DNA of 64,000 bases. It comes from Herbaspirillum aquaticum (GTDB lineage: Bacteria; Pseudomonadota; Gammaproteobacteria; Burkholderiales; Burkholderiaceae_D). The stretch lies in NCBI RefSeq assembly GCF_002213425.1, contig NZ_NJGV01000002.1, positions 248,001 through 312,000 of the forward strand, given 5' to 3'. The position numbers and the translations under genes were made by a program. Below the pieces are notes generated by a model that worked only from the letters and a program-made list of their open reading frames with translations, was not told the origin of the DNA and did not search any database. The first letter of the stretch is position 1. Each line of letters opens with the position of its first letter. Positions 1,447 through 6,055 of the stretch are shown here, one piece after another.

Positions 1447-2832
1447 ATGGCGAAGGTCAAGACCAATTACACCTGCACCGAATGCGGCGGGGTCAGCAAC
1501 AAATGGGCCGGCCAGTGTCCGGCCTGCGGCCAGTGGAATACCCTGGTCGAGACGCTGGTGGAGACGGGTGGCGGCAATCGCTATTCGTCGACCCCGCAAA
1601 GCCTGGCGCAGACCGCACCGGTGTTGAGCCTGGCTGATATCGAAGCGATCGACGTGCCGCGCTTTGGCACCGGCATCGAGGAATTCGACCGCGTGCTGGG
1701 CGGTGGCTTGGTGCCGGGCGGCGTGGCGCTGATCGGGGGCGACCCTGGCATCGGCAAGTCCACGCTGCTGCTGCAGGCGCTGGCCAATATCTCCAAACTG
1801 AAGAAGGTGCTCTATGTGAGCGGGGAAGAGTCCGGCTCGCAGATCGCCTTGCGCGCCAAGCGCCTGGCGGTGGATGCCCGTGAACTGCAACTGCAGGCCG
1901 AGATCCAGCTGGAAAAGATCCTGGCCACCCTGGCCGAGCACAAACCTGAAGTGGCCGTGATCGACTCGATCCAGACCGTCTACTCGGATGCCCTGACTTC
2001 GGCTCCCGGCTCGGTGGCGCAGGTGCGCGAATGCGCGGCGCAATTGACGCGGGTCGCCAAGACCTCCGGCATCACCATCATCATGGTCGGCCACGTGACC
2101 AAGGAAGGCGCGCTGGCCGGGCCACGCGTGCTGGAACACATCGTCGATACCGTGCTGTACTTCGAGGGCGACACCCATTCCAGCTTCCGCCTGGTGCGTG
2201 CCTTCAAGAACCGCTTCGGGGCAGTGAACGAACTGGGCGTGTTTGCGATGACCGAGAAGGGCCTCAAAGGGGTCTCCAATCCTTCGGCCCTGTTCCTTTC
2301 CCAGCACGAAAACCAGGTGCCCGGCTCCTGTGTCATGGTGACCCAGGAGGGCACGCGTCCGCTGCTGGTGGAAATCCAGGCGCTGGTGGACAGCTCGCAC
2401 GTTCCCAACGCGCGCCGCCTGTCGGTGGGCCTGGAGCAGAATCGCTTGGCCATGCTGCTGGCGGTACTGCACCGTCATGCGGGCGTAGCCGCTTTCGATC
2501 AGGATGTCTTCATCAATGCAGTCGGCGGAGTGAAGATTACTGAACCCGCCGCCGACCTGGCGGTGCTGCTGGCGATCAATTCTTCGATGCGCAACAAACC
2601 CCTGCCGCGTGGGCTGGTGGTCTTCGGGGAAGTCGGGCTGGCCGGCGAGATCCGTCCGGCACCGCGCGGCCAGGAGCGCTTGCGCGAGGCCGCCAAGCTG
2701 GGCTTCTCCATTGCCGTGATTCCCAAAGCGAATGCGCCCAAGCAGGCCATCGAGGGCTTGAAGGTGATTGCGGTGGAACGTATCGACGACGCCTTGCAGA
2801 AGGCGCGCGAGATCGACGACTACGCGGCCTGA
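1447..2832 (+). CDS. radA: DNA repair protein RadA (Sms)
   Basis: A RecA-related ATPase that promotes branch migration during recombinational repair. The 461-residue protein has the full family layout. A C4 zinc finger sits at C10, C13, C24 and C27. The P-loop GGDPGIGKST lies near residue 97. The RadA-specific KNRFG motif is present in FKNRFGAVNELGVF. The C-terminal third is the Lon-protease-like domain, including GEVGLAGEIRP. The ATG at 1447 follows a GGCAAGG-like ribosome-binding site. It converges with the minus-strand FlhE-like gene, only 30 nt away, with no obvious terminator between them. Confidence 0.97.
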   Translation: MAKVKTNYTCTECGGVSNKWAGQCPACGQWNTLVETLVETGGGNRYSSTPQSLAQTAPVLSLADIEAIDVPRFGTGIEEFDRVLGGGLVPGGVALIGGDPGIGKSTLLLQALANISKLKKVLYVSGEESGSQIALRAKRLAVDARELQLQAEIQLEKILATLAEHKPEVAVIDSIQTVYSDALTSAPGSVAQVRECAAQLTRVAKTSGITIIMVGHVTKEGALAGPRVLEHIVDTVLYFEGDTHSSFRLVRAFKNRFGAVNELGVFAMTEKGLKGVSNPSALFLSQHENQVPGSCVMVTQEGTRPLLVEIQALVDSSHVPNARRLSVGLEQNRLAMLLAVLHRHAGVAAFDQDVFINAVGGVKITEPAADLAVLLAINSSMRNKPLPRGLVVFGEVGLAGEIRPAPRGQERLREAAKLGFSIAVIPKANAPKQAIEGLKVIAVERIDDALQKAREIDDYAA

Positions 2833-2862
2833 ACCCCAAGCTGAGCCTGTGCTGGCACCGGA

Positions 2863-3432
2863 TCAGCCGGGCGTGTCGAAGGTGACGATGACCTGGTTGA
2901 CCTCGCCCTTGATGGGCGGCTCGCCTGTGCGGGCCGTACCACGCACGCTGTAGTGCAGCTGGAAAGGCTGGCCTGCATCGCGGCCATTGAAGAATTCGGT
3001 ACTGCCGGCATTGGCCTGGCTCACGTCCCAGCATACCCCCGCATCTTTCCAGCATAGCCTGGCCTCGAAGCCAGGCGGCTTGCTGGCCAGCGTATAGCGC
3101 CAGCTGACCCTGCGGATGATCGCGCCGGCCGGTATCTGTCCCACCACCTTGAATTGCGTGATGTAGTCGGCATTGCGGGCACGGATGTCCGGGCCGGGCT
3201 CGTCGGAGGCATAGGCGCCCGTCGGGCCGCCTTGTGGCGGCGCGATGCTGAGCGGCGAGGGGCTATTGGGAATGACAGGCGAAACGATCACGATGGGACG
3301 CTTGCTGCCGTCGCTTCCTGCTGCGGGGATGCTCAGGTTGCGGTCCGCGTGGGTCTGCGCCCACGCCAAAGCGGGCATAGAGGCGCACAGGAGCCAGGGC
3401 AGCAGGCGCCAGCGGGATGCCTGCTCAGGCAT
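2863..3432 (-). CDS. Exported FlhE-like protein, last gene of the envZ-ompR operon
   Basis: A 189-residue protein with a signal peptide of about 26 residues ending in ALAWAQ, then a proline-rich stretch (residues about 35-80), then a C-terminal domain of about 100 residues. That domain resembles flagellar FlhE: a VSWRYTLAS segment, the pair of cysteines in RLCWKDAGVC, and the ending NQVIVTF match FlhE landmarks VSWRYQLLS, RLC...RC and NQVIVNY as I remember them. FlhE is a periplasmic protein of about 130 residues encoded beside flhBA, so both the extension and the location are unusual. The ATG overlaps the envZ stop by 8 nt, implying translational coupling. The similarity is from memory, and a periplasmic function tied to EnvZ signalling is only inferred. 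Confidence 0.75.
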   Translation of the reverse strand: MPEQASRWRLLPWLLCASMPALAWAQTHADRNLSIPAAGSDGSKRPIVIVSPVIPNSPSPLSIAPPQGGPTGAYASDEPGPDIRARNADYITQFKVVGQIPAGAIIRRVSWRYTLASKPPGFEARLCWKDAGVCWDVSQANAGSTEFFNGRDAGQPFQLHYSVRGTARTGEPPIKGEVNQVIVTFDTPG

Positions 3433-4786
3433 GGCGGCGATGGCCCTTCAAGGGCAGGGAGATCTGTACCAGCAGCCCGCCGTGGGTTTCTTCATGGCCC
3501 TTCAGCAGCAGCTTGCCATTGTGCTTGAGTACGATGCGGTTGACGATGGCCAGGCCCAGGCCGGAGCCGTTGGCTTGCCCGCGGGCCGTATCCAGACGGG
3601 TGAAGGGGCGCAGCAGGCGTTCGCATTCGCTCTCGGGCACGCCCGGGCCATGGTCAAAGACGTCCACCACCACCTGATGGCCCTCGATACGGCTGCGTAC
3701 GTGGATTTCTGCGCAATCGGTGCCGGGCGTCTTGCCGTAGCGGCGTGCGTTCTCGATCAGGTTGCTGAAGACGCGCGCCAGCTCGGTGCCATTGCCTGCG
3801 ACCTCGGTGGCGGGCGTAATTTCGGTAGTGAGCTTGACGTCCGACAGACGGCCAGATTTGGCCGCCACGTCTTCCAGTACGCCTGCCAGGTCGATGCTTT
3901 CCAGGCTGTTGGCATCGAAGGGTTTTGCATAGTCGAGGAACTGGCCGATGATGCTGTCCATCTGCGCCAGGTCCGAATGCATGCCATCACGCGATTCATC
4001 GGACAGGTTGGCCATCTCCACTTCCAGCTGCATGCGCGCCAGGGGGGTGCGCAGGTCGTGCGAGATGCCGGCCAGGATCAGGGCGCGGTCCGATTCGATG
4101 CGATTGAGGTCGGCCACCATCTGGTTGAAGCTGCGGTTGGCTTCCTCGATCTCGGTCGGGCCGGATTCAGGCAGCGGTTCGGGCTGCCGTCCCTTGGCGA
4201 TGGCGCGGGCCGCCGCTGTCAGGCGGGCCAGGGGCTGGTTGATGAGGGTGGAGATGAAGACCGCGCCGATCAGCGACAGGAACAGCGCAATCGAACCCCA
4301 GCCCAGCCATTGCAGGCCGGAGGTGCGGTCCAGTCTTCCCCGGTCCAGCATCAGCCAGTATTGGTCGTCGTCGATGTTGAAACTGATCCAGAAGCCTTCC
4401 ACCTCATTCACGCTGGAGGCAAAGATGGTGTTCTCATCCAGCGACTGGCGCACGTAGTACTCCAATTCCGGGACGATGGGCGAATCCTCAGGCGGTACGA
4501 TGCGGTCGCTCTTTTCCAGCGGGTAGATGCGGATGCCTTCATTGCTGGCCAGGTCGAACAGCAGCTCCCGGCGCATCTCAGGGGCCGAGTGCGTCAGCGC
4601 AGCGCGGGTAATGGTGACCACCGAGACGATCTGGGCGGCCAGCTGCTCCGCACGCGGTCCGCGTTCGACCATGCGAAAGCTGGCCACCCAGGCCACCATG
4701 CTGGCGGTGATCAGGAAGGTCAGTAGGAAGAAGGTGCGCCAGAACAGGCCGTTGCTGAACCATCCGGATTGAGGGCGGGTTTTCAT
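3425..4786 (-). CDS. envZ: Sensor histidine kinase EnvZ
   Basis: An inner-membrane sensor kinase that phosphorylates and dephosphorylates OmpR. The N-terminal membrane helix spans about residues 14-36, a periplasmic region of about 125 residues follows, a second helix ends near residue 190, and then come HAMP, the phosphoacceptor motif GISHDLRTPLARMQ, and an ATPase domain with NLIENARRYG, DHGPGVP and GSGLGLAIV. The length is 453 residues, as usual for EnvZ. A TTG two codons upstream (4792) is possible; the ATG at 4786 is preferred because neither has a strong ribosome-binding site. The gene starts 37 nt after ompR, and its stop codon lies inside the start of the FlhE-like gene. Confidence 0.93.
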   Translation of the reverse strand: MKTRPQSGWFSNGLFWRTFFLLTFLITASMVAWVASFRMVERGPRAEQLAAQIVSVVTITRAALTHSAPEMRRELLFDLASNEGIRIYPLEKSDRIVPPEDSPIVPELEYYVRQSLDENTIFASSVNEVEGFWISFNIDDDQYWLMLDRGRLDRTSGLQWLGWGSIALFLSLIGAVFISTLINQPLARLTAAARAIAKGRQPEPLPESGPTEIEEANRSFNQMVADLNRIESDRALILAGISHDLRTPLARMQLEVEMANLSDESRDGMHSDLAQMDSIIGQFLDYAKPFDANSLESIDLAGVLEDVAAKSGRLSDVKLTTEITPATEVAGNGTELARVFSNLIENARRYGKTPGTDCAEIHVRSRIEGHQVVVDVFDHGPGVPESECERLLRPFTRLDTARGQANGSGLGLAIVNRIVLKHNGKLLLKGHEETHGGLLVQISLPLKGHRRHA

Positions 4787-4823
4787 CGGCAAACGGCCTG
4801 CAGGTCAGGGGTGAAGCGGGAGA

Positions 4824-5585
4824 TCAGCGCGGTTTCCCTTCCGGGATGAAGACATAGCCCAGGCCCCACACGGTCTGGATGTACAGCGGGTTGGCCGGAT
4901 CAGGTTCGATCAGCTTGCGCAGGCGCGAAATCTGCACATCCAGGCTGCGGTCGAAGACTTCATATTCGCGGCCGCGAGCCATTTCCATCAGCTTTTCACG
5001 CGACAGCGGTTGGCGGGCGTTGCGTGCAAATACCTTCAATACAGAAAATTCGCCCGTGGTCAGGGAAATGGTTTCGCCGTTCTTCTTCAGGGTACGGGTG
5101 CCCAGGTCAAGGATGAAATCGCCGAATTCAAAGGTCTCCGGGGTTTCCGAAGGCGCGCCCGGCAGTTCATCCGGACCCTTGCGGCGCAGCACCGCGTTGA
5201 TGCGGGCCACCAGTTCACGCGGGTTGAAGGGCTTGGGGAGATAGTCATCGGCGCCCATTTCCAGGCCGATGATGCGGTCCACGTCCTCGCCCTTGGCGGT
5301 GAGCATGATGATGGGTGTCTGGTCGCCGGCACCGCGCAGGCGGCGGCAGATGGCCAGGCCGTCTTCGCCGGGCAGCATCAGGTCCAATACCAGCAGGTCG
5401 TAGCGCTCGCGGATCCAGAGCTTGTTCATGGCCTGGGCGTTTTCGGCCGTGACCACGTTGAAACCTTGCTCGGTCAGGTAGCGGCGCAGCAGGTCGCGCA
5501 AGCGGATGTCATCATCCACCACCAACACTTTGAATTGATTGGCGGATGTTGTCGTATTAGTATTGTTGCCGTGGGTCGTATTCAT
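4824..5585 (-). CDS. ompR: Response regulator OmpR
   Basis: The DNA-binding partner of EnvZ. The receiver domain has the acidic cluster D24-D26, the phosphoacceptor D68 in LLVLDLMLPGEDG, and the lysine of PKPFNPREL. The winged-helix domain contains GREYEVFDRSLDVQISRLR and ends in VWGLGYVFIPEG. The sequence is very close to enterobacterial OmpR over its whole length, including the linker ELPGAPS. I chose the ATG at 5585, preceded by AGG-CACC, giving 253 residues with a short Asn/Thr-rich lead; the frame stays open 18 codons further upstream. It is first in the operon ompR-envZ-FlhE-like. TTAC repeats upstream suggest autoregulation. Confidence 0.95.
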   Translation of the reverse strand: MNTTHGNNTNTTTSANQFKVLVVDDDIRLRDLLRRYLTEQGFNVVTAENAQAMNKLWIRERYDLLVLDLMLPGEDGLAICRRLRGAGDQTPIIMLTAKGEDVDRIIGLEMGADDYLPKPFNPRELVARINAVLRRKGPDELPGAPSETPETFEFGDFILDLGTRTLKKNGETISLTTGEFSVLKVFARNARQPLSREKLMEMARGREYEVFDRSLDVQISRLRKLIEPDPANPLYIQTVWGLGYVFIPEGKPR

Positions 5586-5638
5586 GGTGCCTATGGTAGC
5601 GTCTTGGCGATTTTGAGCAAGTCGGGGCTGTTGATCCA

Positions 5639-5661
5639 TTACAAACTGTTACATACCTTAC
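5639..5661. promoter_or_regulatory. Phased TTAC direct repeats upstream of ompR (candidate regulator site)
   Basis: TTAC occurs at 5639, 5649 and 5658, a spacing of 10 then 9 bp, so all three lie on nearly the same helix face. Read on the minus strand they are GTAA repeats. OmpR/CpxR-family regulators bind such head-to-tail repeats with about one helical turn between half-sites. The block lies between ompR and the divergent exported gene, next to a TATAAG hexamer on the minus strand (plus positions 5671-5676) that could be the ompR -10 element. Binding is inferred. Confidence 0.4.
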
Positions 5662-5773
5662 CTTAATCATCTTATACCATCGCGGCCTGCGGCCTAAACT
5701 GGAATCACGTCGGGAAAGCAACGTTGTCACCGCTTTCTCTTCCCTGATTCTCTGTCTCCGGAAAAATCGCATT

Positions 5774-6055
5774 ATGAAGATTGCAGTCGTCAACAAGCTA
5801 TGTCTGGCAGCGATGCTGGCGCTCGGTGTGGGAGCGGCCGCGCTGGCTGGCCCCCCGCAGGGCGGCCGGCCGATGCCTGGGCAGCCGGGCGACTTCAGGC
5901 AGCATGCCGGTGATTTCAACCCGCAGGATCATCGCAACCAGATCGCCAGCGACCAGGAGCAGCGCCGCAACGGCAAGCTCAGTGCTGATGAGCGCCGCGA
6001 ATTGCGTCGCCAGATCAACGAAGTCGGCCAGGATATCTATCGCGTCAAACGTTGA
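5774..6055 (+). CDS. Small exported protein of unknown function
   Basis: A 93-residue protein. The first 25 residues are a signal peptide ending ALA before GPPQGG. The mature part is short, rich in Gly, Pro, Arg and Gln, then helical and highly charged in the C-terminal half (LSADERRELRRQINEVG). I do not recognise a named family, although small secreted proteins with a similar ERRELRRQI ending are common in Burkholderiales. It is divergent from ompR, shares the TTAC-repeat region with it, and is followed by a strong terminator, so it is a single-gene unit. A role as an OmpR-regulated envelope protein is conceivable but unproven. No strong ribosome-binding site is visible before the ATG. Confidence 0.7.
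   Translation: MKIAVVNKLCLAAMLALGVGAAALAGPPQGGRPMPGQPGDFRQHAGDFNPQDHRNQIASDQEQRRNGKLSADERRELRRQINEVGQDIYRVKR

Follow-up and report, generated by a model that had tools for sequence, protein, structure and literature searches.

Why is a gene for an FlhE-family protein placed directly behind a sensor kinase gene, and what may its product do there? A chaperone model has been published for flagellar FlhE (Halte et al. 2024, PMC11247099) and a solved structure is available (4QXL), and the same paper describes FlhE domains encoded away from flagellar operons as sporadic, with a function that is unclear. Here we analyzed a stretch of 64,000 nucleotides of the Herbaspirillum aquaticum genome (contig NZ_NJGV01000002.1, positions 248,001 to 312,000), called the window below, in which an open reading frame with an ATG start encodes an FlhE-like protein of 189 residues as the third gene of an operon with the order risA-risS-flhE-like (Table 1).

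A sequence-only reading of this DNA had placed the gene in an envZ-ompR operon, overlapping the kinase gene by 8 nt and with no flagellar gene nearby. The overlap is borne out by the coordinates of the open reading frames, and the neighbourhood indeed consists of radA, alr, risS and risA; flhA is on this contig too, separated from the gene by about 128 kb. As to the operon, the regulator scores above the equivalog cut-off for OmpR; the kinase stays well below the one for EnvZ (267 against 415 bits), and its periplasmic domain matched RisS_PPD with 137.9 bits. RisS is the better name for the kinase because it carries the RisS_PPD, HAMP, HisKA and HATPase_c domains.

The longest open reading frame of risA/ompR extends to 5639, the ATG at 5585 being the likelier start, and about 30 bases separate this gene from risS. 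On the other side, radA converges on the FlhE-like gene, with 30 bases between the ends of the two genes; radA is also found downstream of the FlhE-like gene in the loci L009, L010, L040, L113 and L114. No terminators or promoters were found in a scan of window positions 2700-5900. We infer that risA, risS and the FlhE-like gene are co-transcribed and that the FlhE-like protein is produced in step with RisS.

Table 1. Features of the risA-risS-flhE-like locus and its convergent neighbour, in positions of the window
Feature	Position	Strand	Basis
radA, convergent neighbour	1447..2832	+	ORF and Pfam
FlhE-like gene (FlhE-family secreted protein)	2863..3432	-	ORF; PF06366 match above cut-off; dN/dS
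FlhE beta-sandwich domain (predicted), residues 69-188, with Cys127 and Cys134	2869..3228	-	AlphaFold, 4QXL, Foldseek, hhalign
Variable proline-rich linker, residues 35-68	3229..3330	-	Column entropy; AlphaFold pLDDT < 50 across residues 14-63
Conserved motif Q-x3-[DE]-R-[NT]-[LF]-S at the probable mature N-terminus, residues 26-34	3331..3357	-	Alignment
Signal-peptide-like N-terminus, residues 1-25	3358..3432	-	Read from the sequence
Overlap of risS stop and FlhE-like gene start, 8 nt, ATGCCTGA	3425..3432	-	ORF coordinates
risS, sensor histidine kinase of EnvZ/RisS kind	3425..4792	-	RisS_PPD, HAMP, HisKA, HATPase_c
Periplasmic domain of RisS, coding part	4334-4651	-	RisS_PPD
risA/ompR response regulator	4824..5585	-	NF007005 OmpR 421.5 bits, cut-off 331

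The protein belongs to the FlhE domain family by the sequence cut-off and by its predicted fold. Residues 96-185 matched PF06366 (FlhE, Pfam) with 47.9 bits and an E-value of 1.5e-12, above the curated cut-off of 25 bits; the NCBIfam equivalog for flagellar FlhE (NF047946) gave 35.8 bits, far under its cut-off of 150, which may be narrow. The landmarks on which the family likeness had first been noticed, VSWRY, the cysteine pair and NQVIV, are real and are also kept in the Salmonella FlhE alignment. The profile and structure comparisons that had been proposed as a check both returned FlhE. The profile-profile alignment by hhalign gave a probability of 99.6% against flagellar FlhE, and the AlphaFold model, which was built from a 22-sequence alignment, has a disordered N-terminal part and a block-mean pLDDT of 84-95 from residue 71 onward. 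Residues 69-187 of this model superpose on 4QXL with Z 17.5 and an rmsd of 1.4 Å over 112 of 115 residues (VIA-align 2). The same structure was ranked first by both Foldseek (E 1.1e-9) and VIA-align 2, and the next matches were the Kex2 and furin domains, with Z of 11.9 and lower.

In front of this domain, a probable cleavage site after AxA and before Gln26 was read from the sequence, with A25 invariant in 19 of 19 and Q26 in 21 of 21 alignment rows covering each position, and the FlhE-like protein is probably exported to the periplasm. The mature protein would begin with a conserved peptide in which R31 and S34 are invariant in 21 alignment rows. The mean column entropy is 0.87 bits for residues 26-36, 1.65 bits for the linker and 0.92 bits for the FlhE domain; the peptide of residues 26-34 is thus about as conserved as the folded domain, though a variable linker intervenes, and in this it looks like a docking motif.

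The same-operon linkage of the FlhE-like gene with a sensor kinase is conserved. In a family sample of 392 genomes, 34 belong to the Herbaspirillum group, which is the genus of the window and which was identified from the records as Herbaspirillum huttiense, frisingense, robiniae, lusitanum, autotrophicum, rhizosphaerae, chlorophenolicum and other strains. Exactly one FlhE gene is present in 32 of these 34 genomes, and by match coordinates the FlhE-like gene immediately follows risS in 31 of the 32 carriers; in the remaining one (G1433) the two genes are on separate contigs. The sequence-only reading had named adjacency in this strain alone as a refuting result, and the adjacency turned out to be genus-wide. 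At the 23 junctions compared (22 relatives and the window) the genes overlap by 8 nt (ATGnnTGA) or 4 nt (ATGA, GTGA), or are separated by a gap of a few bases, and the overlap or near-overlap with risS persists in deep members whose FlhE domain is only about 40% identical.

An FlhE match is absent from two of the 34 genomes: G1448, which is 63% complete and in which risS runs off the contig end, and G1379, a complete genome with risS and flhA. Behind risS of G1379 (L111), Hsp20-like, BON-domain and FNR-like genes replace the FlhE-like gene and radA. A metagenome bin labelled Duganella (L040, JAMFSU010000053.1) has the Herbaspirillum-type order risA-risS-flhE-like-radA; this label is probably wrong, and the bin falls in the genus code of the window because its match (G550) has the same position as that of G1423. 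In the sister genera RisS occurs without an adjoining FlhE-like gene, and in the three sister-genus loci read (L047, L048 and L051) no FlhE gene lies directly beside risS. There risA-risS adjoins ispD-ispF or ispF, and in Herbaspirillum radA-alr, so that the risAS locus has been rearranged. This distribution is best explained if the FlhE-like gene became established early in the history of Herbaspirillum, as a translation-coupled third gene of risA-risS.

The flagellar locus of the window genome has the order cheRDBYZ-flhBAFG-fliA, followed by flgN, flgM and flgA on the opposite strand. No flhE is present between its fliA and flgN, where the sister genera carry one, and the FlhE-like gene does not follow flhA or fliA in a flagellar operon. 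The first comparison covered seven genomes of sister genera, and in these FlhE is close to flhA and distant from risS; the other four genomes outside the genus with a match above the cut-off in the 392-genome sample, counted by match only, all belong to one sister genus (g28). Relocation of a flagellar flhE into the risAS operon was initially preferred in view of the empty fliA-flgN gap of the window genome, and it was then rejected by the trees after deep RisS-linked members had been added. In the first tree, from which these members were left out, the RisS-linked proteins stood beside orphan FlhE-domain genes with support that was not decisive, and a clade with Oxalobacteraceae flagellar FlhE had a p-AU of 0.0995. 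With the deep members included this clade was rejected (p-AU 0.0013, log-likelihood difference 34), and the same test with copies of family f31 added gave a p-AU of 0.034. The flagellar FlhE of three families (f31, the window's own, and f232, which we take to be Enterobacteriaceae) formed a supported clade (97/93) that excludes the RisS-linked proteins. By these sequence trees the FlhE-like gene is placed as a member of a separate, non-flagellar FlhE branch.

The FlhE-like protein thus has in common with flagellar FlhE the beta-sandwich fold, the Cys pair, the core motifs and a probable periplasmic location, whereas it differs in its place outside the flagellar operon, its tree branch, its score under the FlhE equivalog cut-off, and the added N-terminal peptide and linker. 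The loop between the cysteines also differs, having six residues in the RisS-linked proteins, six or seven in the orphans and four in most flagellar FlhE; as a diagnostic of flagellar and non-flagellar proteins its length was ruled out, since six residues also occur in one flagellar copy, that of L058. Likeness of the N-terminal tail may be a weak counter-signal to separate descent: three of eight flagellar tails tested, these three being from one sister genus, resemble the RisS-linked motif (p 0.0006 to 0.02), and the five others were negative.

The orphan FlhE-domain genes found here are scattered singletons without a fixed or informative neighbour: one adjoins an AHL synthase gene, another lies between panB/panC and a mutT-like gene, a third is next to valS, and a Pantoea plasmid carries one as well. 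The grouping of RisS-linked and orphan proteins is weakly supported (40/82) and contains several long orphan branches. Besides this grouping, both have a long Cys loop and often K-N where flagellar FlhE has R-G, but the FlhE-like gene is tied to risA-risS across a genus and the orphans have no such partner. One genome (L016, G076:C65) has a flagellar FlhE and, in the neighbourhood of an AHL-synthase-like gene, another FlhE-domain gene of the orphan kind. The Pantoea gene, on a plasmid of 204 kb (L116, NZ_CP034477.1), is annotated as flagellar FlhE and adjoins an ABC transporter ATPase gene. A match in Cupriavidus metallidurans, considered among the plasmid relatives, turned out to be flagellar (fliA-flhE).

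The FlhE-like gene is under purifying selection, with dN/dS of 0.14-0.28 in six orthologues. Within the genus the periplasmic domain of RisS is almost invariant (mean column identity of 92%, and 84% for the kinase core), and the FlhE domain diverges faster than RisS. With the kinase core allowed for, the distances of the FlhE domain and the RisS periplasmic domain showed no sign of excess co-evolution (partial r 0.127, permutation p 0.16).

From these data we tentatively put first, at somewhat less than an even chance, that the FlhE-like protein may be an accessory or feedback factor of RisAS signalling, in line with the suggestion of the sequence-only reading that it might tune the kinase. 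It would be produced in step with RisS and exported to the side of the membrane on which RisS senses, where it may bind the RisS periplasmic domain, or may bind an envelope ligand and present that ligand, and the binding would shift the kinase/phosphatase balance of RisS on RisA. By analogy, QseG acting on QseE and CpxP acting on CpxA may serve as models. This role is taken as the most likely one because the protein would be made together with RisS and would share a compartment with its sensing domain, and because nothing else kept over the genus is as specific as the coupling to the stop codon of the kinase gene. We also count in its favour the family and fold, the genus-wide linkage with its overlaps, the dN/dS, the separation in the trees, the docking-like peptide and the precedent of QseG-QseE. 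Against it we count the occurrence of RisS without the FlhE-like gene in sister genera and in the complete genome G1379, the lack of excess co-evolution, and the near-invariant RisS periplasmic domain set beside a fast-diverging FlhE domain; a place in the operon is also what a merely co-produced protein would show.

CpxP and MzrA are accessory proteins of sensor kinases, and together with QseG they resemble the FlhE-like protein as small envelope proteins with a membrane kinase, a partnership which is only proposed here. There is no detected sequence relation between them and the FlhE-like protein, and QseG is a lipoprotein, whereas the FlhE-like protein has no lipobox. As an FlhE-fold regulator of a sensor kinase, the FlhE-like protein would have no counterpart known to us. 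QseG is encoded with its kinase, and QseG-QseE is the precedent for an accessory protein from a kinase operon (PMC12691602).

It is nearly as likely, given that RisS is found elsewhere without the gene and that co-evolution gave no signal, that the FlhE-like protein is an envelope effector or chaperone which is co-produced with RisAS and acts as output of the system on another periplasmic or outer-membrane structure, without touching RisS. The faster divergence of the FlhE domain agrees with such a role, as do the orphan FlhE-domain genes in settings as unrelated as an AHL synthase, panB/panC and mutT-like genes, valS and the ABC transporter of the Pantoea plasmid. By itself, however, an effector role leaves unexplained why the gene is strictly coupled to the kinase stop codon across the genus rather than placed elsewhere in the RisA regulon.

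A flagellar role is improbable, and less likely than either an accessory or an effector role; in that case the protein would still be a rod-cap chaperone for the flagella of the cell, now expressed from the risAS operon. It would agree with the complete FlhE fold and with the presence of flhA in all carriers tested (flhA was found in 21 named genomes and eight first-sampled genus genomes, these two sets overlapping, and in a set of ten genomes), as well as with the empty fliA-flgN gap where relatives have flhE, the two FlhE types never being found together in a genome of the family sample. The RisS-linked-like tails of the three flagellar proteins in one sister genus, though not the five others, point the same way, and RisA affects motility in Bordetella (PMC10955343). 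Flagellar assembly is nevertheless not likely to be its job: the trees reject grouping with Oxalobacteraceae flagellar FlhE, the NCBIfam equivalog cut-off is not reached, and some flagellated genomes lack FlhE altogether (G012, a relative, and G1379, from the genus itself), so FlhE is not needed for flagella there. It also speaks against a flagellar role that at high phosphate risA and ompR, as named in H. seropedicae, either of which may correspond to the regulator of the window, fell while flagellar genes rose (PMC8222739). That the gene is a selfish or barely useful passenger which chance fixed next to risS is very improbable, as its fast divergence and its absence from the complete genome G1379 are outweighed by the low dN/dS, its retention in 32 of 34 genomes and the risS overlap maintained at about 40% domain identity.

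Returning to the accessory role, a wider form of it is also conceivable, though rather unlikely as a whole: the FlhE fold may be a general periplasmic binding module of which flagellar FlhE is one specialised branch, and in Herbaspirillum it may have become a dedicated third component of RisAS, docking through the N-terminal peptide and reporting the envelope state to RisS. If RisS is modulated in such a manner, a new fold would be added to the short list of envelope proteins which tune two-component sensors. The expectation of the sequence-only reading that this gene would widen the roles of FlhE-type domains is strengthened by the trees, which separate it from flagellar FlhE; the occurrence of non-flagellar FlhE domains had already been published (PMC11247099). 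What is new is the fixed, translation-coupled home of an FlhE-domain gene beside a sensor kinase, a setting which we did not find reported; our literature search gave nothing relevant that links Herbaspirillum with FlhE or sensor kinases with FlhE domains. The literature openly leaves unexplained what FlhE domains do when encoded away from flagellar operons (PMC11247099), and Herbaspirillum, in which the gene is kinase-coupled and no second FlhE is present, provides a clean test case for the FlhE fold apart from flagella.

The risA-risS pair shares with Bordetella RisA/RisS (PMC10955343, PMC5020355) the family of the kinase periplasmic domain and an OmpR-type regulator. Divergent from risA, at window positions 5774-6055, lies a gene for a small secreted Gly/Pro/Arg-rich protein, which is a candidate RisA target.
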